Shown piece by piece: positions 3,112-37,808 of a stretch of DNA of 38,545 bases. Below the pieces are notes generated by a model that was not told the origin of the DNA, made no database searches, and saw only the letters and a list, made by a program, of their open reading frames with translations. The translations under genes were made by a program, and so were the position numbers. How positions within the stretch are numbered: position 1 is the first letter of the stretch; each line of letters begins with the position of its first letter. Source of the DNA: Opitutus sp. GAS368. GTDB lineage: Bacteria > Verrucomicrobiota > Verrucomicrobiia > Opitutales > UBA953. Location: positions 1-38,545 of the forward strand of contig CAMBGQ010000016.1 in NCBI GenBank assembly GCA_945866215.1. The letters are read 5' to 3'.

Positions 3112-3161
3112 ACCATTGGGAAAGTGCGGAGGGAAGGCCCTTGGTCAAGGGATTTGCGGAA

Positions 3162-3291
3162 GGGGCAGGGCCAGGGGCAGGGCTAGGGACAGGTTTCGAT
3201 TACTTAGGGACAAAAATAGGGTCCGTGGCAGGCGATACCTGACATGGCCTCATCCTTCTGGTCCTGTCCGTGTCCCTGCCCCTGTCCCTCG
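3162..3291. repeat. Long inverted repeat A, hexamer arms (AGGGRC type)
   Basis: The left arm 3167-3193 and right arm 3263-3289 are inverted copies matching at 23 of 27 positions. Both arms are degenerate tandem hexamers such as AGGGGC and AGGGAC. The roughly 70-nt interior holds a small hairpin CAGG-CGATA-CCTG. On the minus strand the arm begins about 5 nt after the trpA stop, so in an mRNA it would form a 3' hairpin separating trpA from pyrB. The left arm has five G-runs with 2-3 nt loops and so has G-quadruplex potential. Same arm class as the element at 25149-25223. Confidence 0.8.
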
Positions 3292-3295
3292 AAGT

Positions 3296-4087
3296 TTACT
3301 TCGCTAGCAGTTCCCTGACCTTCGCGCCGATGGCGGCCGCGGCCTGGGATTTATTGTCCTTATGGGCGGCGACGACGTTCACCAAGGCGCTGCCAACGAC
3401 CACGCCGTCGGCGACCTTGGCGATGGCCTGCACGTGGGCGGCGGTGGAGACGCCGAAGCCGACGCAGATGGGCAGGGCGGTATGCTTACGGATCTCGGTG
3501 ACCGCGGCGGCGAGGTTGGCGGCCAATTCGGAGCGTTCACCGGTCACGCCTTCGCGCGAGACGTAGTAGATGAAGCCCGAGGCGTGCTTCGCGATGAGGC
3601 TGATGCGGGCGGGCGGCGTGGTTGGAGCCACGATGAAGATATTGGCGAGTCCGTGTTTCTTCGAGGCCGCGATCAGGTCGGAAGCTTCCTCGGGCGGGCA
3701 GTCGAGGACGAGCAGGCCGTCGGCGCCGGCGGCGCGGACCTTGGCGCAGTAACCTTCGAGGCCCAAAGAGAACAGCAGGTTATAATAACAATAGAGCACG
3801 ATCGGCTTGTCCGTCCCGGCGCGCACCGCGCGGAGCACGTCGAGTAGGCCCTCGTAGGTCATGCCCCCTTCGAGAGCGCGTTGGGCCGCGAGTTGGTTGG
3901 TCAGGCCATCGGCGAGGGGGTCGGAGAAGGGTACGCCCACCTCGAGCACGTCGGCGCCGTTCTGCGCCAGGGAAAGGAGCACGGCCTTGGAGGTCTCGAC
4001 GTCGGGGTCGCCGGCGCAGACGTAGCTCACGAAGGCCGGGCGGCCTTCGGCTTGGCAGCGGGCGAACGTCTGGGCTAAGCGATCCAT
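3296..4087 (-). CDS. trpA: Tryptophan synthase alpha chain
   Basis: 263 residues. It cleaves indole-3-glycerol phosphate to indole and glyceraldehyde 3-phosphate and passes indole to TrpB. The first motif FVSYVCAGDPD and the catalytic block EVGVPFSDPLADG are present. Counting from the ATG at 4087, the catalytic acids fall at Glu49 and Asp60, the same numbers as in the enterobacterial enzyme, which supports this start. A longer in-frame start at 4273 would translate the antisense of tRNA-Leu and is rejected. No trpB or other trp gene is adjacent; the gene stands between the tRNA and the pyr genes and is separated from pyrB by inverted repeat A. Confidence 0.96.
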   Translation of the reverse strand: MDRLAQTFARCQAEGRPAFVSYVCAGDPDVETSKAVLLSLAQNGADVLEVGVPFSDPLADGLTNQLAAQRALEGGMTYEGLLDVLRAVRAGTDKPIVLYCYYNLLFSLGLEGYCAKVRAAGADGLLVLDCPPEEASDLIAASKKHGLANIFIVAPTTPPARISLIAKHASGFIYYVSREGVTGERSELAANLAAAVTEIRKHTALPICVGFGVSTAAHVQAIAKVADGVVVGSALVNVVAAHKDNKSQAAAAIGAKVRELLAK

Positions 4088-4191
4088 AGGCGAAAGGAAG
4101 CCGGGTTTGGTGCGGAGGGCAAGGCGAAGGCGAACGCCGCCCGCTTTCCCGGGTTGCCAATCGGGGGCGTGTCCGCACTTTGGAGCCGTCG

Positions 4192-4272
4192 GCCCAAGTG
4201 GTGGAATGGTATACACATCAGACTTAAAATCTGCCGCCGAAAGGCTTACCGGTTCGAGTCCGGTCTTGGGCA
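4192..4272 (+). tRNA. tRNA-Leu (anticodon UAA)
   Basis: The acceptor stem GCCCAAG pairs with CTTGGGC, with discriminator A as expected for Leu. The anticodon stem CAGA/TCTG encloses the loop CTTAAAA (anticodon TAA). There is a long variable arm (GCC-GAAA-GGC), as in class II tRNAs, and a T-arm ACCGG-TTCGAGT-CCGGT. CCA is not encoded; it must be added after transcription. Confidence 0.96.
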
Positions 4273-19637: not shown

Positions 19638-19680
19638 GGGCCGTAAGTTGGAGAAACGGGAGGGAGAGGGCAATTGAATA

Positions 19681-19835
19681 GGGGGTGGGGCAGGGGGTGG
19701 GGCAGGGGTTAAAGCAGAGTAAAACAGGGTTTTTAGGGGTAGGGATGGGGGTAGGGGTAGGCATTTCGGGTGGCGGGTGGCGGCCTCGGGTGGCAGGTGC
19801 CGGGAGTCGAGTTACCCCAACCCCAACCCCTTTAA
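19681..19835. repeat. Long inverted repeat B with G-quadruplex tracts, between accA and DUF1080 gene
   Basis: The arms about 19731-19754 (TTTTAGGGGTAGGGATGGGG...) and 19812-19835 are inverted copies matching at roughly 18 of 24 positions. Outside the left arm, 19681-19707 has five runs of four or more G with 1-2 nt loops, a very strong G-quadruplex pattern. Inside is a GGGTGGC-type 7-nt tandem (19768-19797). It sits in the divergent promoter region of accA (minus) and the DUF1080 gene (plus). The inversion is less regular than at the other loci. Confidence 0.65.
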
Positions 19836-21585: not shown

Positions 21586-22743
21586 ATGTATCCTCAGGAC
21601 CTACGCGAAAACTGGCATGCCGGCCAAGGCCGATGGAAGGACGTGCCCGCCGCGGAGTGGAACGACTGGCACTGGCAGCTCCGCAACCGCATCAACACTC
21701 TGGCGCAGCTGGAGTCGATGCTGGAGCTGACCAAGGAGGAGCGGGAAGGGTGCCTCTTCGCCCCGCATAAGCTCTCGCTTTCGATCACGCCGCATTTCTT
21801 CAACCTCATTGACCCTAAGAATCCAAACTGCCCGGTCCGCCGGCAGGTCATCCCGCGGATCGAGGAGTCCTACGTCGCCCCAGGCGAATCCGAGGATCCC
21901 GTCGGCGAAGAGGGCACCATGCCTGTTCCTGGCATCGTCCATCGCTACCCCGACCGCGTGCTCTTCCTGGTCACCGATCGTTGTGCTTCGTATTGCCGTT
22001 ATTGCACGCGTAGTCGCCTGGTCTCCAACGCTCAGGCTTATGATTTTCATCCCGAACTCGAAGCCGGCCTGAAGTACATCGAAGAGCACACCGAGATCCG
22101 CGATGTCCTGCTGTCCGGCGGCGACCCACTATTACTCTCCGACGCCAAGCTGGACGCGCTCCTCGGCCGCCTGCGCGCCATCAAGCACGTCGAGTTCATC
22201 CGGCTGGGCTCGCGCATCCCGGTCTTTCTGCCGCAGCGCATCACGCCTGAGCTCGCGGAGATCCTCCGTAAGCACGGGCCGGTCTGGATGAGCATCCACA
22301 CCAATCACCCGAAGGAGATTACCCGCGAACTCGCTACGGCTTGCGAGCGCCTCTCCTTCGCCGGCGTACCTCTCGGCAACCAGTCCGTGCTCTTGGCCGG
22401 CATCAACGACGACGCCGAAGTCATGAAGTCGCTGCTGCATCGGCTCCTGATGATGCGCGTGCGCCCGTATTACCTTTACGCCTGCGATCTCATCGAAGGC
22501 TCGACCCATTTCCGCGCGCCCATCCAGAAGGGCATCGACATCATCCGGGCGCTCCGCGGCCACACGACCGGTTACGCGGTGCCGCAGCTCATCATCGATT
22601 CCCCGGGCGGCGGCGGCAAGGTGCCCATCAACCCAGAATACGTGCAGGCCATCCATGACGGCATCGTCGAACTGCGTAATTTCGAGGACCGGGCGTATGT
22701 TTATCCGTCCGGTACGAAGATGCCGGAACCGAGGAAGGTTTAA
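21586..22743 (+). CDS. kamA: Lysine 2,3-aminomutase, radical SAM/PLP enzyme
   Basis: 385 residues. Converts L-alpha-lysine to beta-lysine using a [4Fe-4S] cluster, S-adenosylmethionine and PLP. The cluster motif CASYCRYC gives Cys133/137/140, and GGDP (178-181) is the SAM-binding motif. Asp301 (in YACDL), Asp338 and Lys345 (in DSPGGGGK) match the clostridial residues Asp293, Asp330 (lysine binding) and Lys337 (PLP) with a constant offset of 8. That favours a true free-lysine mutase over an EpmB-type EF-P lysine mutase. No epmA, efp or beta-lysine acetyltransferase (ablB) gene is adjacent. The stop codon TAA runs straight into inverted repeat C. Confidence 0.9.
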   Translation: MYPQDLRENWHAGQGRWKDVPAAEWNDWHWQLRNRINTLAQLESMLELTKEEREGCLFAPHKLSLSITPHFFNLIDPKNPNCPVRRQVIPRIEESYVAPGESEDPVGEEGTMPVPGIVHRYPDRVLFLVTDRCASYCRYCTRSRLVSNAQAYDFHPELEAGLKYIEEHTEIRDVLLSGGDPLLLSDAKLDALLGRLRAIKHVEFIRLGSRIPVFLPQRITPELAEILRKHGPVWMSIHTNHPKEITRELATACERLSFAGVPLGNQSVLLAGINDDAEVMKSLLHRLLMMRVRPYYLYACDLIEGSTHFRAPIQKGIDIIRALRGHTTGYAVPQLIIDSPGGGGKVPINPEYVQAIHDGIVELRNFEDRAYVYPSGTKMPEPRKV

Positions 22744-22960
22744 GCGGTTGGCGGTTGGGAGCACAAGCCGCTCAAGGGGGAACCGGAAACCGGATGATTG
22801 GCTGGGGCCTGTCTTTTGGTAAGCTTGACCGAATAGGCCAGCTGCGGTTGAGCGAGGCCGCTCAACCCTACCTAAAATGGGTCCGCAGCATCCTTTCCGG
22901 TTTCCGGTCTCCCCTTGGGGTGGGTCTTTTCTATCCGCTAACCGCCAACCGCTAACCGCT
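22743..22960. repeat. Long inverted repeat C, heptamer outer arms, conserved interior
   Basis: Outer arms are built of RGCGGTT heptamers: left 22743-22760, right 22935-22960 (AACCGCY). A second inner inverted pair, 22773-22794 with 22896-22917, matches at 20 of 22 positions around CCGGAAACCGG / CCGGTTTCCGG. The centre has a hairpin TTGAGC-GAGGCC-GCTCAA. Its interior is closely related to the element at 37528-37747: the 37-nt block starting at 22785 matches it at 34 positions. The left arm shares its first A with the last base of the kamA stop codon. Confidence 0.9.
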
Positions 22961-23885: not shown

Positions 23886-24022
23886 GTGACACGGGAGGGG
23901 ACACGTTGACAAGTGGGCACGTGGGCAAGGGCCGAAACAGCCGCTCATTTAGCCCCAGGGTTTGGTCATACCCGGATGCTATCTCCCCTTGTCAACGTGC
24001 CAGCGTGCCCACGTGTCCCCTT
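23886..24022. repeat. Long inverted repeat D, octamer arms (GTGGGCAM type)
   Basis: Arms 23897-23931 and 23986-24020 are inverted copies matching at 28 of 35 positions. Each arm is a run of degenerate 8-nt units such as TTGACAAG, TGGGCACG and TGGGCAAG. The loop is about 54 nt. On the minus strand the first arm begins about 4 nt after the mnmA stop codon, so it separates mnmA from ubiE. It uses the same arm vocabulary as the element in the purH-fabD gap but a different loop. Confidence 0.85.
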
Positions 24023-24024
24023 GG

Positions 24025-25101
24025 TTACACAAAAACTCCTCCGCCCATGAGAACGCGGTCGTGGTAGACGGCGAGGACCTGGCCGGGGGCGAGGCCGCGC
24101 TGGGTCTCGGCGAAACGGAGGCGGACGGTGCCGTCGGGCTGCGGGAGGAAGCGGGCGGGCGTGGCTTTGTCGCGGTAGCGGACGCGGGCAAGGATGTCCT
24201 GGTCGCCGACCACGGGCTGATTGATCCAGGTGAAATCGCGCGCGGTGGCTTCACCGGTGTAGAGCCAGCGCGCGTCCGGCTTATCGAAGGCGACGTGCAG
24301 CGTGTTGGCCCCGAAATCTTTCTTCACCACGACGAAGTATTCGTGGTCGGTGTTGGAGGGCAGGCCGATGCCCTTACGCTGCCCGATGGTATAGCGGTGC
24401 AGGCCACGGTGTTGGCCGATTTCCTTCCCCGTGGCGTTCACGACCGGGCCGGGCGAATCGGGGATATGGCGCTCGAGAAAATCTTGGACGGGAATCTGGC
24501 CGAGGAAGCAGATGCCTTGGCTGTCCTTGCGCTCGGCGTTCGGCAGCCGCGCGTCCGCCGCGAGTTGGCGCACCTCGGGCTTCCGCAGCTCGCCGATCGG
24601 AAAGATTGCCTTCGCCAGCTGCTCTTGGCGGAGTAAAGCGAGGAAGTACGACTGATCCTTGTTCGGGTCGAGGCCCTCAAGGAGGTCGAACGTCCCGTCG
24701 GCGTTACCGCGGCGACGCGCGTAGTGGCCGGTCGCGATGGCGTCAAAGCCGTCCGCGAGGGCCCGGCGCAGGAAGACGCCAAACTTCATCTCACGGTTGC
24801 AGATGATGTCGGGGTTCGGGGTTAGCCCCCGACGGTACCCGTCGACGAGGTATTGGACGACCGTTTCGCGGTAGGCTTGGACAAGGTCGAGGATCCGGAA
24901 GGGGAGCCCGAGGTGCGCGGCGACCGCTTGGGCGTTGCGGACATCGTCCTCCCAGGGGCATTCGCCGGGAAAGGGTAGGCCTTCCTCGTTCATCCAGGTC
25001 CGGAAGTAGGCCGCATGCACCTCATGCCCTTGCTGCTTGAGCAGAAGGGCGGCCACGGCGCTGTCTACGCCGCCGGAAAGGGCTACCAAGACTTTGGACA
25101 T
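24025..25101 (-). CDS. mnmA: tRNA-specific 2-thiouridylase
   Basis: 358 residues. Adds sulfur at C2 of wobble U34 in Lys, Glu and Gln tRNAs, in the cytoplasm. The PP-loop SGGVDS lies at 9-14 and binds ATP. The catalytic cysteines Cys101 (TPNPDIICN) and Cys198 (GICFLG) match E. coli Cys102 and Cys199. GHYARR and the RYTIGQRKGIG block are typical. Full length, with no anomalies. It is preceded by inverted repeat E, which it shares with the divergent LysM gene. Confidence 0.97.
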   Translation of the reverse strand: MSKVLVALSGGVDSAVAALLLKQQGHEVHAAYFRTWMNEEGLPFPGECPWEDDVRNAQAVAAHLGLPFRILDLVQAYRETVVQYLVDGYRRGLTPNPDIICNREMKFGVFLRRALADGFDAIATGHYARRRGNADGTFDLLEGLDPNKDQSYFLALLRQEQLAKAIFPIGELRKPEVRQLAADARLPNAERKDSQGICFLGQIPVQDFLERHIPDSPGPVVNATGKEIGQHRGLHRYTIGQRKGIGLPSNTDHEYFVVVKKDFGANTLHVAFDKPDARWLYTGEATARDFTWINQPVVGDQDILARVRYRDKATPARFLPQPDGTVRLRFAETQRGLAPGQVLAVYHDRVLMGGGVFV

Positions 25102-25148: not shown

Positions 25149-25223
25149 AGGGACAGGGACAGGGGCAGGGACAGGGGCAGGTAATATTGGCCGGTCCCTG
25201 CCCCTGTCCCTGTGACTGTCCCT
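25149..25223. repeat. Long inverted repeat E, hexamer arms (AGGGRC type)
   Basis: Arms 25149-25181 and 25191-25223 are inverted copies matching at 27 of 33 positions with only a 9-nt loop (TAATATTGG), making a long near-perfect cruciform. Units are AGGGAC and AGGGGC. It lies in the divergent gap between mnmA (minus) and the LysM gene (plus). The left arm has G-quadruplex potential (five G-runs with 2-3 nt loops). Confidence 0.9.
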
Positions 25224-25856: not shown

Positions 25857-26753
25857 ATGCCCACTCCTCCTAAGAAATCCCTCGGCCGCGGTCTCGGCTC
25901 TCTCATTGGCGGCGGCGTGACCAAGCCCGCCGCGCCGGCCCTCCCGGTGGCGATCGCTGCGTCGGTGCCGCCCGCCCTGCAGCTACTGGAATTACCGCTC
26001 GGCTCGATTGTCGCCAATCCCCGCCAGCCACGCCGCGATTTCGACGACGCCCAAATCAAGGAACTCGCCGACTCGATCCGCTCCGAAGGGCTCATGCAGC
26101 CGATCGTCGTCCGTAAGGTGAAGGATGGCTACGAACTCATCGCCGGCGAACGCCGCTTCCGCGCCTTCAAGTTAATCGGCCAGCCGACCATCACCGCCCG
26201 TGTGGTCGAAGCCAGCGACGCCTCCAGCGCCGTGCTCGCGCTCATCGAGAACCTCCAGCGCGCCGACCTCAACTCGGTCGACGAAGCCCTCGGCTTCGCC
26301 TCCCTCATGCGCGACTTCAATCTCACGCAGGACGCCGTCGCCGAGCGCCTCGGCAAACCGCGCGCGACCATCGCGAACAGTGTCCGCCTCCTCGCGCTCG
26401 ACCCCGACATCCAAGGCTTCCTGCGCAAGGGCCAGCTTTCCGCGGGTCATGCCAAGGCCTTGCTCGGGGTGGAGAATCCCGCGCACCGCATGCTCGTCGC
26501 CCGTCTCGTCATCGAGAAAGGCCTGTCGGTCCGCGCCACCGAAGCCGAGGTCCGCAAACTTGGCGCGTCCAAGAAAGGCCAGCGCAAGCAGACCGTTCAG
26601 ACCGTCGTGGACGATGTCCAGAAACGCCTCGCCTCCCATTTCGCCTCGCCCGTCTCAGTCGTCCGCAAGGGCACCAAAGGCAGCATCTCGATTCCTTTCA
26701 GCAGTGACGATGAACTCGCCCGCCTGCTGGAGAAGATTGGGGTGAAACTGTAA
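25857..26753 (+). CDS. parB: Chromosome-partitioning protein ParB
   Basis: 298 residues. The N-terminus KKSLGRGLGSLIG is the usual ParA-interaction segment. The CTPase/ParB-N domain (about 43-135) has the GERRFRA box and ENLQRADL. The central helix-turn-helix region (about 140-215, LTQDAVAERLGKPRATIANSVRLL) reads parS. The C-terminal dimerisation segment is about 255-298. It loads on parS and spreads to organise the origin. parA normally precedes parB but is absent here, replaced by the LysM gene. I saw no parS-like TGTTTCACGTGAAACA in the window. Confidence 0.95.
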   Translation: MPTPPKKSLGRGLGSLIGGGVTKPAAPALPVAIAASVPPALQLLELPLGSIVANPRQPRRDFDDAQIKELADSIRSEGLMQPIVVRKVKDGYELIAGERRFRAFKLIGQPTITARVVEASDASSAVLALIENLQRADLNSVDEALGFASLMRDFNLTQDAVAERLGKPRATIANSVRLLALDPDIQGFLRKGQLSAGHAKALLGVENPAHRMLVARLVIEKGLSVRATEAEVRKLGASKKGQRKQTVQTVVDDVQKRLASHFASPVSVVRKGTKGSISIPFSSDDELARLLEKIGVKL

Positions 26754-26767
26754 CAAGCGTAGGTGAG

Positions 26768-26877
26768 AGCGGTTGGCGGTTAGCGGTTGGCGGTTAGGTA
26801 AATGCCGAGAAACAAAAAGGCCCGTGTCAGGTGACGCCGGTTTTTTTGTTTTTCCTAACCGCTAACCGCCAACCGCT
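26768..26877. repeat. Long inverted repeat F, heptamer arms (RGCGGTT type)
   Basis: The left arm 26768-26798 is four RGCGGTT heptamers plus AGG. The right arm 26854-26877 is its inverse; the first 21 nt of the left arm recur exactly in the right arm. A terminator hairpin is nested in the loop. It lies between convergent parB and purH. Same heptamer class as elements C and I but without their shared interior. Confidence 0.9.
26810..26853. terminator. Bidirectional terminator nested in repeat F
   Basis: AAACAAAAAGG pairs with the T-rich TTTTTTTGTTTTT across a GC-rich centre (GGCCCGTGTCAGGTGACGCC). It can end parB transcripts on the plus strand and purH transcripts on the minus strand. Confidence 0.75.
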
Positions 26878-26901
26878 AACACCTCGGCGGCCCTCGGCCG
26901 C

Positions 26902-28460: not shown

Positions 28461-28651
28461 GGGGTAGGGGGAGGGGGTGGGGGGGTCAAGGAAGGAGGGG
28501 TGGATGAGGGGGCACGTGGGCAAGGTGACACGGGGGCACGGCCGTTATGCCTCACCCCTTATTTATCATGCTTTGGGGCATCTCCCCATGTCCCCGTGTC
28601 CCCTTGCCAGCATGACCCCTGGCCTTTCTCTCCGCCATTGACCCTCCCGCC
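28461..28651. repeat. Nested long inverted repeat G, octamer inner arms and G-rich outer arm
   Basis: The inner arms 28518-28541 and 28586-28609 are inverted copies matching at 20 of 24 positions, built of 8-nt units (GGGGGCAC, GTGGGCAA, GGTGACAC), the vocabulary of element D. An outer G-rich arm (28461-28489, ending GGGTCAAG) faces a C-rich arm (about 28636-28651) sharing TTGACCC. Positions 28461-28485 have four G-runs of 4-7 with 1-2 nt loops, a strong G-quadruplex pattern. It lies in the divergent promoter gap between purH and fabD. Confidence 0.8.
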
Positions 28652-28672
28652 CTTTTTCCCTCCCTCCTTCCC

Positions 28673-31511: not shown

Positions 31512-32855
31512 ATGTCTTTCTACTACCGCCGCAAGCTCCGTAAAATCGGCAACGCCTTGCTTGAGGGGTCGGAGAAGGTCCACCTTTACCGGGGCGACGT
31601 GCTGGCCAAGGCGTCCCTCAATGAGCAGCTCGAGCTGGCGGAGAAGGTCCGCGCGGCCGCGCGCAATCGGACGATGGAGGTCACCCAAGTCGAGGCTTTG
31701 CTCAACCGCCTGCACGAGGTGCTCGTGCGCAACGGCGGCAAGGTCTACCCGGTCACATCCGGCACGGACTGGACCGAGATGGTGGTGATGGCGGCCATCG
31801 TGGCCGGGGCGATCCGCAGCTTCTTCCTGCAGCCGTTCAAGATCCCGACGAATTCGATGTGGCCGACGTATAACGGCATGACCGCCGAGGTACGCGCACC
31901 CGCCGACCCGGCGCCGGATTTACTCACGCAGGCCCTCGACAAACTTCAATGGACTTGGACCTATGTGATCCCCGCCGAGGCGGAGGGAGAGGTGGCCATC
32001 CCGATTGTCACGCAGCGTTCCGGCAACAACCAGGTCGAATACGGCCTGCGTCAGCGCAGCCGGACCATCGACACGGGCATCTTCGGCACGGGCATCTGGA
32101 AGGGGCCAGCCGACAAACATGAGATCCAGGTCGGCGCCACCCTGCAGAGCGTGCTCGTGCCCGCGGACTTCAATTTCGAGACGGTCATCTTGCGCACCTA
32201 TTTCCCCGAGGAGGCGAAGCTCAAGCTCCCTCGGCAGGACCAGGATCGTTGGCGCGTGGTCTTCGCCAAGGCTGTCCGCGAGGGCCGCATCAAGAATGGT
32301 CCGTTCGGGCCGGTGTTGGTGACTGGCAAGACCGTCGAGACGGGCAAGCCGCTTTTCAATTTCGACATCCTGACCGGCGATATGCTCTTCGTGGATCGCA
32401 TGTCCTACCACTTTGTGGATCCCTCCCGCGGCGATACCTTTGTCTTCCGCACGAACAACATCCCTGGCCTCAACGACCAATACGGACAGCCTTCCCAGAG
32501 CTATTACGTCAAGCGCCTCGCCGGAGTGCCAGGGCAGAAGCTCCGCATCGGCGACCAGGGTGAGCTTTTCGTGGATGGCAAAGTCGTCACCTCGCCGGCA
32601 CCGATGGCGCTTAATAGCCGGCGGGCGATGGACCAAGGTTATTACGGTTACCTGCCGGACGCGGGGGGCGATCGTTACGCGCTGCCGCTGCAGGAGGAAT
32701 ATCTCGTGAGGCCCTCGCATTACTATGCGCTGGGCGATAATTCGTCGAACAGCTTCGACTCGCGCGGCTGGGGCGAAGTCCCCGCCCAGGATGTCGTCGG
32801 CAAGCCGCTCTTCATTCTCCACCCCGTCACATCCCACTGGGGCCCGGCGAAATAG
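31512..32855 (+). CDS. lepB: Signal peptidase I with a large insertion
   Basis: 447 residues, longer than the 323 of E. coli LepB. It removes signal peptides from exported proteins at the outer face of the inner membrane. The nucleophile Ser115 is in IPTNSMWPTY (box B) after a membrane segment at about 88-105. The general base Lys334 is in YYVKRLAGVPGQ (box D). GDNSSNSFDSRGWGEVP (box E) is near 415. The catalytic dyad is intact. Between box B and box C about 170 residues are inserted (about 120-290), and the N-terminal cytoplasmic part (about 85 residues) is charged and helical. The insertion may adapt substrate choice; that is inference. Confidence 0.94.
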   Translation: MSFYYRRKLRKIGNALLEGSEKVHLYRGDVLAKASLNEQLELAEKVRAAARNRTMEVTQVEALLNRLHEVLVRNGGKVYPVTSGTDWTEMVVMAAIVAGAIRSFFLQPFKIPTNSMWPTYNGMTAEVRAPADPAPDLLTQALDKLQWTWTYVIPAEAEGEVAIPIVTQRSGNNQVEYGLRQRSRTIDTGIFGTGIWKGPADKHEIQVGATLQSVLVPADFNFETVILRTYFPEEAKLKLPRQDQDRWRVVFAKAVREGRIKNGPFGPVLVTGKTVETGKPLFNFDILTGDMLFVDRMSYHFVDPSRGDTFVFRTNNIPGLNDQYGQPSQSYYVKRLAGVPGQKLRIGDQGELFVDGKVVTSPAPMALNSRRAMDQGYYGYLPDAGGDRYALPLQEEYLVRPSHYYALGDNSSNSFDSRGWGEVPAQDVVGKPLFILHPVTSHWGPAK

Positions 32856-33025
32856 GATAGGGGTAGGGACGTGATTGCCATCACGTCCGTGGGCGGACGG
32901 ACATCATAGGGTCGTTGACCTTACCCGGCTCATGCCACGTCGCTCTGCGAACGGCGGCCATGGCAATGGCCGCCCTACCTTAGGGAATCCGTTGCCTTGC
33001 CACCCCCGACCCCTATCCCTATCCC
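32854..33025. repeat. Inverted repeat H with internal hairpins (AGGGRT-type arms)
   Basis: The outer arms 32854-32869 and 33010-33025 are inverted copies matching at 13 of 16 positions, of AGGGGT/AGGGAT type. They overlap the last bases of the lepB stop TAG. Inside are perfect hairpins: GACGTGAT-TGCC-ATCACGTC (32868-32887), CGTCCG-TGGG-CGGACG (32884-32899, overlapping the first) and GGCGGCCAT-GGCA-ATGGCCGCC (32953-32974). It separates lepB from the GNAT gene and could form several alternative structures. Confidence 0.75.
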
Positions 33026-33044
33026 TGCGCTTCACCGCTCCGCC

Positions 33045-36689: not shown

Positions 36690-37529
36690 ATGCGCACGCT
36701 CCTCGCTCTCTTCTGTTCCGCCGTCGTCCTCGTCGCCGAGGATCGGCCCGCTTTCTTTGCGATGGATACCGCCGCTCGTCTCGAGCCGGCGGAATGCGCG
36801 CAGGTGCTGGCCGATCTTGGTTATGCGGGCTTGGGTGGGCGCCCGGCCACAGCCAAGGCTCACTCCGCGGCGTTGAAGGCGAAGGGCCTCGTCTTCTTTA
36901 ACGGCTACCACGTCACGAATTTCTCTCATGCGCAGACGGCCATGTCGGCCGACCTGAAGAAGGCCGTCGATGACTTGGCGTCGGCGGGCGGCTCCGTGCT
37001 TTGGCTGGGCATCAATAAGGTCGATTTCCCGATGGGTATCAAATTACCCCCGGAATACGGAGATACCATCGTCGTGCCGCAACTCCGCCAATTGCTGGCC
37101 TACGCTAAGCCTAAGGGCGTGAAGATTTCGCTCTACCCCCATGGAGGTTTCTGGGCCGAGAAGTTTGAAGTCTGCGTGCGTGTCGCGGAGAAGGTCGACG
37201 ACAAGTCGTTGGGCGTAACGTTTAATCTCTGCCACTGGCTGAAAATCGAAGGCTCCGAGCGCGATCCACTCCCGCTGATCAAGGAGGCCCTGCCGCGGCT
37301 GAACTTCATCACGATCAATGGCGCCGACACCGGTGACACCCAGAAGCTCGGCTGGGATAAGCTGATTCAGCCGTTGGGACGAGGGTCTTATGACGTGGCG
37401 TCGCTGGTCACCCAGGTCCGGCGGGCCGGCTATCGCGGCCCGTTTGGTTTCCAAGGATACGGCATCAAGATGGAGCCCAAGGAACTCCTCAAGGAGACCA
37501 TGGAAGGTTGGCAGAAGGTGGTGAAGTAA
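36690..37529 (+). CDS. Exported TIM-barrel protein (xylose isomerase-like, AP endonuclease 2 family)
   Basis: 279 residues. A short signal peptide (MRTLLALFCSAVVLVAE) precedes a TIM barrel of PF01261 type: DLGYAGLGG early, VKISLYPHGGFW near the middle, GVTFNLCHWLKIEG (metal-ligand region) and FITINGADTGD later. Cytoplasmic relatives isomerise or epimerise sugars, but exported forms with a leader are common in Verrucomicrobiota and Planctomycetota. The function here is unknown; a role in extracytoplasmic sugar handling is an inference. The stop codon TAA is continuous with inverted repeat I. Confidence 0.85.
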   Translation: MRTLLALFCSAVVLVAEDRPAFFAMDTAARLEPAECAQVLADLGYAGLGGRPATAKAHSAALKAKGLVFFNGYHVTNFSHAQTAMSADLKKAVDDLASAGGSVLWLGINKVDFPMGIKLPPEYGDTIVVPQLRQLLAYAKPKGVKISLYPHGGFWAEKFEVCVRVAEKVDDKSLGVTFNLCHWLKIEGSERDPLPLIKEALPRLNFITINGADTGDTQKLGWDKLIQPLGRGSYDVASLVTQVRRAGYRGPFGFQGYGIKMEPKELLKETMEGWQKVVK

Positions 37530-37747
37530 GCGGTAAGCGGTTGGCGGTAAGCGGTTGGGGCGAGCCATCAAGGCAAGGGAAACCGGAGACCGGATGATTG
37601 GCTGGGGCATGTCTTTCGGTAGGGCTGACCGACTCGGTCGGCCGATTTTAAGCGAGAGTGCTTAACCCTAACTCGAAAATGGCCCGCAGCATACCTTCCG
37701 GTTTCCGGTCTCCCTTTGGGGCGAGGCTTTCCTTACCGCTAACCGCT
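37528..37747. repeat. Long inverted repeat I, second copy of the element-C interior
   Basis: Outer arms of RGCGGTW heptamers (left 37528-37557, right 37731-37747). The inner arms 37574-37594 and 37697-37718 centre on ACCGG repeats. Interior blocks are near-identical to the element at 22743-22960, including ATGATTGGCTGGGGC and CCGCAGCAT. The central hairpin is TTAAGC-GAGAGT-GCTTAA, against TTGAGC/GCTCAA in the other copy: a compensatory change. It begins at the last two bases of the stop codon of the TIM-barrel gene. Confidence 0.9.
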
Positions 37748-37757
37748 GTCGTCTGGT

Positions 37758-37793
37758 AACAAAAAACCCCGGTCGCCCGGGGTTTTTGTTTTC
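37758..37793. terminator. Bidirectional intrinsic terminator
   Basis: AACAAAAAACCCCGG and CCGGGGTTTTTGTTTT flank a short TCGC-type loop, 10 nt past repeat I. It ends transcripts from both the plus-strand TIM-barrel gene and the minus-strand DUF3500 gene. Confidence 0.93.
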
Positions 37794-37808
37794 AGTCTGC
37801 AATCAGCC

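Follow-up and report, generated by a model that had tools for sequence, protein, structure and literature searches.

The DNA considered here, referred to as the window, is the whole of contig C16 (38,545 bp) of a MAG of Opitutus sp. GAS368, an assembly (G000) of 1.90 Mb in 97 contigs that is 85.5% complete. Its nearest named match (L009) is a metagenome genome labelled Verrucomicrobia, whose MnmA is 91% identical to that of the window, and the matches beyond L009 carry mainly Opitutales or Opitutae labels. Gene calls were home-made, by hexamer coding score, and NCBIfam names the genes around the features of interest as trpA, pyrB, accA, kamA, ubiE, mnmA, parB, purH, fabD, lepA and lepB; an Rfam search returned tRNAs and no other RNA family. 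The longest trpA ORF overlaps an opposite-strand tRNA-Leu(taa) (window 4087-4272), and the coding score places the true start at 4087. The parB gene (window 25857-26753) has no adjoining parA, its neighbours being a LysM-type ORF and purH, and in locus L137 (genome G049) the space between parB and purH holds a homologue of the TIM-barrel gene lying before element I in the window.

Nine palindromic elements, lettered A to I, lie in the gaps between genes, where the search was for inverted repeats with loops of at least 15 nt. They are given here with the parts of C, F and I that the argument needs:

3161..3290, no strand: element A, 6-mer arms, trpA(-) to pyrB(-), co-directional gap
19679..19830 (approximate), no strand: element B, degenerate, 6-mer-like arms, divergent gap accA(-)/ORF(+), unscored by the element detector
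22741..22960, no strand: element C, homologous to I, convergent gap kamA(+)/tRNA-Arg(-)
22818..22872, no strand: innermost REPIN-like doublet of C, GGTAAGC...CCCTACC
23896..24021, no strand: element D, 8-mer arms GGGGACAC/GTGGGCAC, mnmA(-) to ubiE(-), co-directional gap
25149..25223, no strand: element E, 6-mer arms GGGACA/GGGGCA, divergent gap mnmA(-)/LysM-type ORF(+)
26767..26885, no strand: element F, 7-mer arms, convergent gap parB(+)/purH(-)
26807..26854, no strand: loop of F, intrinsic-terminator-like hairpin with a T-run
28463..28664 (approximate), no strand: element G, 8-mer arms, divergent gap purH(-)/fabD(+)
32853..33026, no strand: element H, 6-mer outer arms, lepB(+) to the next ORF(+), co-directional gap
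37527..37747, no strand: element I, whole composite, convergent gap TIM-barrel ORF(+)/ORF 37809(-)
37527..37560, + strand: outer 5' arm of I, 7-mer units GCGGTTR/GCGGTAA, containing the stop TAA 37527-37529
37575..37607, + strand: middle CCGG shell of I, 5' arm AAGGGAAACCGGAGACCGGATGATTGGCTGGGG, from the inverted-repeat search
37618..37672, no strand: innermost REPIN-like doublet of I, GGTAGGG-hairpin...hairpin-CCCTAAC, with near relatives flanking sister-species RAYT genes
37684..37716, - strand: middle CCGG shell of I, 3' arm CCGCAGCATACCTTCCGGTTTCCGGTCTCCCTT, from the inverted-repeat search
37731..37747, - strand: outer 3' arm of I, CCTTACCGCTAACCGCT, from sequence reading
37762..37787, + strand: separate intrinsic terminator just 3' of I

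A sequence-only reading of this DNA had pointed out that such elements sit on or next to stop codons, and had taken this placement, as hard to explain by random insertion, to fit a 3'-end role in transcription termination, protection from 3' exonucleases or insulation between operons. Direct reading bears out the overlaps in C, H and I: the kamA TAA occupies 22741-22743 and the C arm AGCGGTTGGCGG begins at 22743, the lepB TAG (32853-32855) opens the H arm TAGGATAGGGGTAGGG, and the TAA at 37527-37529 forms the first three bases of the I arm TAAGCGGTAAGCGG, where it opens the repeat unit TAAGCGG. The closeness of A, D and F to stops is equally plain, with starts 3-13 nt beyond and the earlier distances good to within 1-2 nt: the A arm ends at about 3289 and the trpA(-) stop lies at 3296-3298, the D arm ends at 24021 and the mnmA(-) stop lies at 24025-24027, and the F arm begins at 26767, the parB stop ending at 26753. 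That earlier list was selective, since it omitted B, E and G, which lie in divergent gaps and not near a stop.

Nested anatomy and the REPIN core

Element I is built of three concentric palindromes, with 7-mer arms outermost, a CCGG shell in the middle and a GTAGGG...CCCTAC REPIN at the centre, and the whole folds into a single nested hairpin (RNA z=-7.4 for 37521-37800 and DNA z=-6.0 for 37521-37750, both against shuffles). Element C is 78-83% alike to I over two stretches and has the same three layers, and H carries a GTAGGG...CCCTACC doublet at 32862-32979 inside its 6-mer arms. The innermost layer is a REPIN as these have been defined together with their RAYT (TnpA-REP) transposases (PMC3116915, PMC3733652), having a GTAG-type end next to a hairpin (GGTAGGG in I and H, a slightly degenerate GGTAAGC in C), an inverted REP pair forming one hairpin unit (both ends in 40 gaps, with GTAG always outward), many dispersed extragenic copies (GGTAGGG in 72 gaps of about 1.23 Mb) and, in sister species, a cognate RAYT flanked by the same repeat. 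The siting at 3' ends and stops is also as described in both papers; unlike the systems described there, the REPINs here lie inside palindromic shells of unrelated sequence, and a RAYT (PF01797) was not found in the window's own assembly, which is 85.5% complete.

Of the 55 genus genomes searched for Y1 transposases (PF01797), 24 have over-threshold matches. RAYT genes of 147-155 aa in G016, G002, G050 and G004 have GTAGGG...CCCTACC REPs on both sides, longer or shorter RAYT frames in G051 and G001 are likewise REP-flanked on both sides, and in G008, G024 and G047 the same REPs stand next to incomplete RAYT frames. The loci with REPs on both sides are L229, L231, L232, L235, L236 and L239; in L231, L232 and L235 the upstream REPIN, reverse-complemented, is GGTAGGGCTGACCACCCTTGGTCAGCCGCGGTTGAGCGAGGGCGCTCAACCCTACC, near-exact to the module at the centre of C and of I, and in L239 the stop TAG of the RAYT gene falls in a GTAGGG-type REP end. 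The outer tandem-unit arms and the CCGG shell have no GTAG end and, among the genus transposase flanks examined, no transposase beside them. Larger Y1 relatives (~310-330 aa) at L160, L163, L164, L165, L168 and L238 adjoin long GGGGTCAG...CTGACCCC palindromes, an arrangement like that of TIRYT and its TIR elements (GGGGWSAS motif), but these palindromes are not window arms. Element D opens with GGGGACAC, which fits GGGGWSAS, and no TIRYT flanked by GGGGACAC was found among the genus Y1 flanks.

As composite intergenic palindromes containing REPs in alternating orientation, the elements resemble the REP mosaics (BIMEs) of enterobacteria, but BIMEs alternate REPs side by side, whereas the window elements are concentric and have short tandem-unit arms. 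Cyanobacterial STRR heptamers are direct intergenic 7-mer arrays, whereas the arrays of the window have inverted partners. The TAACTGA heptamers of Beggiatoaceae form intergenic tandem 7-mer arrays (PMC4679880) that are direct and lie mainly just upstream of starts, in contrast to the inverted-paired arrays of the window, which lie away from starts. Apart from the survey of GTAG REPs, no earlier literature description of tandem-unit inverted arms in Verrucomicrobia was found. Most of the genus genomes tested carry the 7-mer GCGGTTR and 8-mer GTGGGCAC patterns, against 0 of 13 from the order's other families; in a sample of 195 genomes across the phylum there were three matches beyond the genus, of which two are simple tandem arrays.

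The arms also share a polarity. The 5' arm is G-rich in 145 of 153 inverted repeats and C-richer in 5 (138 gaps from the window's own genome, G016 and syntenic loci), and this holds for every arm family examined and in 38 of 38 divergent gaps, whereas control hairpins in element-free gaps are unbiased (75 vs 76). A recognition foot shared by all families could possibly produce such uniformity, as could RNA polymerase meeting a G-rich arm on entry from either side.

Placement around stops, starts and gap types

In 829 kb of the window's own genome, 37 of 355 gaps contain inverted repeats scoring at least 15, where shuffled gaps would give 0.25. Distances to stops and starts were taken from this 829 kb and 800 kb of the relative G016 (1.63 Mb in total), counting each element from its outermost arm, leaving out tRNA gaps and using uniform placement in the same gap as the null. 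Stop sides lie within 15 nt in 33 of 72 cases, against 22.2 +- 2.7 expected (P printed as 0.0000 in 3000 simulations), and within 3 nt in 11; start sides lie within 15 nt in 14 of 66, against 18.1 expected (P=0.07), and of 38 co-directional gaps, 28 have the element closer to the stop (Wilcoxon p=0.0096). The 21 syntenic mnmA regions of the genus, which are related by descent and not independent, give counts of 32 of 50 for stops (21.5 expected) and 8 of 62 for starts (18.8 expected), and 19 of their 20 co-directional gaps have the element closer to the stop. The stop-side bias is real and moderate; avoidance of starts is significant in the syntenic loci and suggestive in the combined sample of the window's genome and G016.

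Elements confined to convergent sites were considered and rejected, co-directional and divergent gaps being occupied too. Among gaps of at least 100 nt, elements are found in 13 of 35 convergent, 18 of 165 co-directional and 8 of 99 divergent ones; contigs C7, C8, C13, C19 and C46, picked for repeat matches, are excluded from these figures. Divergent gaps account for 35 of the 125 element gaps analysed and for 3 of the 9 elements in the window. The spread along the genome is uneven, with 8 elements in the 38 kb of the window vs 5 in 639 kb (contigs C1-C6, C9-C12, C14 and C15), and C8, C13, C16, C19 and C46 form the element-dense set in this comparison; the repeats may also restrict how long contigs assemble.

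Tabulated over the sampled 1.63 Mb, arm-to-stop distances are not flat, in keeping with the sequence-only reading, yet they have a long tail. What stands of its placement claim is a non-random distribution biased to 3' ends and convergent gaps; what does not is the step to a dedicated 3'-end function, and the argument from random insertion was overstated, since insertion or retention that spares promoters and ribosome-binding sites yields an equal pattern, one already described for REPs, which in convergent gaps lie less than 20 bp from 3' ends and whose GTAG supplies TAG stops (PMC3733652). The adjacency of REPs to stop codons, like their siting in convergent and co-directional gaps, is already known and accounts for the observed placement (PMC3733652). 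What goes beyond the known is that the elements are nested concentrically, have arms of tandem units, exchange families at fixed sites and share one polarity.

Conserved sites with exchanged arms

Between the window's genome and G016, 9 orthologous gaps are occupied in both, 8 in one only and 254 in neither (Fisher 2.5e-11). Three of these nine gaps (trpA-pyrB, mnmA-ubiE and purH-fabD) have clearly different outer arms in the two genomes, and the gene-proximal flanks align at gaps with swapped outer arms. Across the genus, the mnmA-ubiE gap holds 8-mer arms in the window, L009, L119 and L125, 6-mer arms in L120, L121, L123 and L132 and a GCGCGACTGCGTCGCG palindrome in L122 and L131; the parB-purH gap holds 7-mer arms with a terminator in eight loci, 8-mer arms in L121, L122 and L124 and GAGTATG units in L132; and arm families are swapped likewise at the divergent gaps mnmA-lysM and purH-fabD. 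Orthologous gaps with no element also exist, the mnmA-ubiE gap shrinking to about 9 nt in L137, and several elements are absent from the more distant genus members L137 and L138. The dominant signal in F across relatives is the replacement of whole arms; there is one covarying pair (34-132) among relatives, and column-wise covariation over 7 species is weak, with two double-change pairs and not beyond shuffles.

L122 and L131 come from less closely related species and have in common both the GCGCGACTGCGTCGCG element and the same altered sequence upstream of ubiE, which suggests that the mnmA-ubiE gap may have passed by recombination between them.

Signatures at the RNA level

A T-tract follows only 3 of 104 outer 3' arms, and intrinsic-like terminators are no commoner in gaps with elements (6 of 91) than in gaps without (36 of 476); in F and I the terminators are distinct from the arms, lying within the loop of the former and downstream of the latter (37762-37787). 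Like rho-independent terminators, the elements are hairpins 3' of genes, but in place of a short-loop hairpin with a U-tract they have long loops (at least 15 nt by the definition of the search), arms of 20-35 nt and no U-tract, and they occupy divergent gaps too. Selection on a transcript hairpin would be expected to leave more G-U than A-C mismatches between the arms, as read on the transcribed strand. Co-directional gaps show no sense-strand G-U excess, with 67 G-U vs 90 A-C (fraction 0.43, 95% CI 0.35-0.51; the terminator control, at 8:4, is too small to calibrate this), and the counts are 66:49 in convergent and 54:48 in divergent gaps. Since the mismatches carry no G-U bias, pairing seems not to be maintained at the RNA level. 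Elements in divergent gaps behave like the rest. Neither the G-U tolerance of an evolved 3'-end RNA hairpin nor its restriction to positions downstream of genes is found.

Discussion

I consider it likely that the elements are REP/REPIN-class palindromic DNA that gathers in promoter-free space, tolerated passengers and not purpose-built transcription stops. They would be nested repetitive extragenic palindromes whose innermost layer (in C, H and I) is a REPIN-type doublet very probably spread by the RAYT (Y1/HUH) transposases of the genus, and this REPIN sits inside other palindromic shells, namely the CCGG shell and tandem-unit arms built of 6-, 7- or 8-mers. Elements would be gained, nested and replaced chiefly at long-standing intergenic sites and would survive where promoters and ribosome-binding sites are spared, so that they crowd at stops, above all in convergent gaps, and mostly keep a distance of some 50 nt or more from starts. 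Some arms themselves provide the stop codon because their ends contain TAG or TAA. Transposition would be the cause and promoter avoidance the filter, with template switching as the homogeniser. The arms would be kept complementary by events in the DNA, either replacement of the whole element or correction between arms through a template switch, and selection for a hairpin in the mRNA would not be what maintains them. Template switching is known to restore the match between arms at the DNA level (PMC8794818; E. coli PMC7202029), and REPs are known insertion-sequence targets (PMC1525189); I infer that both apply to the present elements. The conserved occupancy of sites could instead mean that a hairpin is needed there.

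Several other explanations deserve to be weighed against this one. It is unlikely that the elements exist as dedicated 3'-end structures, evolved to terminate transcription, block 3' exonucleases or insulate operons: the stop-side excess, the convergent bias and the strong folding of I (RNA z=-7.4) would agree with such a role, as would the hypothesis that REPs serve termination and mRNA stabilisation (PMC3733652), but it is left unsupported by the divergent elements (35 of 125 gaps), the few U-tracts (3 of 104), the separate terminators of F and I, the lack of sense-strand G-U bias and the orthologous gaps that have no element, and entire families are swapped at one site. The divergent elements and the missing G-U bias also speak against hairpins that stall ribosomes next to stops and so lower translation of the upstream gene, a role inapplicable in divergent gaps and very unlikely as the general explanation given that the upstream genes are unrelated housekeeping genes; there is nonetheless a precedent, as a later survey (PMC12306157) discusses REPs within 15 nt of stops as possible translation regulators and relates from earlier work that E. 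coli REPs closer than 16 nt to a stop reduce upstream translation by ribosome stalling, and 33 of 72 stop sides here lie within 15 nt, 11 of them within 3 nt. Lowered translation is possible as a side effect at some sites.

A mover that cuts TA/TAG-like sequence would have stops as natural targets and would replace the stop with an arm end, which is how one could read arms that open with TAGGGG, TAAGCGG or GTAGGG and supply the stop in C, H, I and the RAYT gene of L239, GTAG REPs being known suppliers of TAG stops (PMC3733652); I find this quite improbable, however, with D, A and F beginning 3-13 nt past the stop, about half of the stop sides more than 15 nt away and the divergent elements without a stop. 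Conserved occupancy with family swaps, the missing RNA signature and the G-rich 5' arm (145 of 153, control 75:76) would agree with a role at the DNA level, in which a gap needs a palindrome of any sequence (as supercoil sink, cruciform, or gyrase or protein site), its presence being kept and its sequence swapped, but occupancy is patchy, L137 and L138 go without several elements, 639 kb of other contigs of the window's genome hold only 5, and permissive sites with nested insertion explain the conservation equally well, which makes such a role distinctly unlikely. I would also call doubtful the idea that certain gaps of the genus cannot do without a long palindrome, whatever its sequence, in which the G-rich arm comes first on both strands, with the DNA or R-loop shape kept and the nested, unrelated families acting as interchangeable suppliers.

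For tolerated palindromic passengers of the REP/REPIN class, the wider meaning is that closeness to stop codons, often taken as a sign of 3'-end function, also arises from palindromic mobile DNA whose insertions into promoters are not tolerated. The genus amounts to a natural experiment, with dozens of species, conserved gene order and repeat families swapped at the same gaps, and it could inform our understanding of the turnover of REP-type DNA, of whether such DNA requires a RAYT, and of whether hosts come to depend on a hairpin independently of its sequence.
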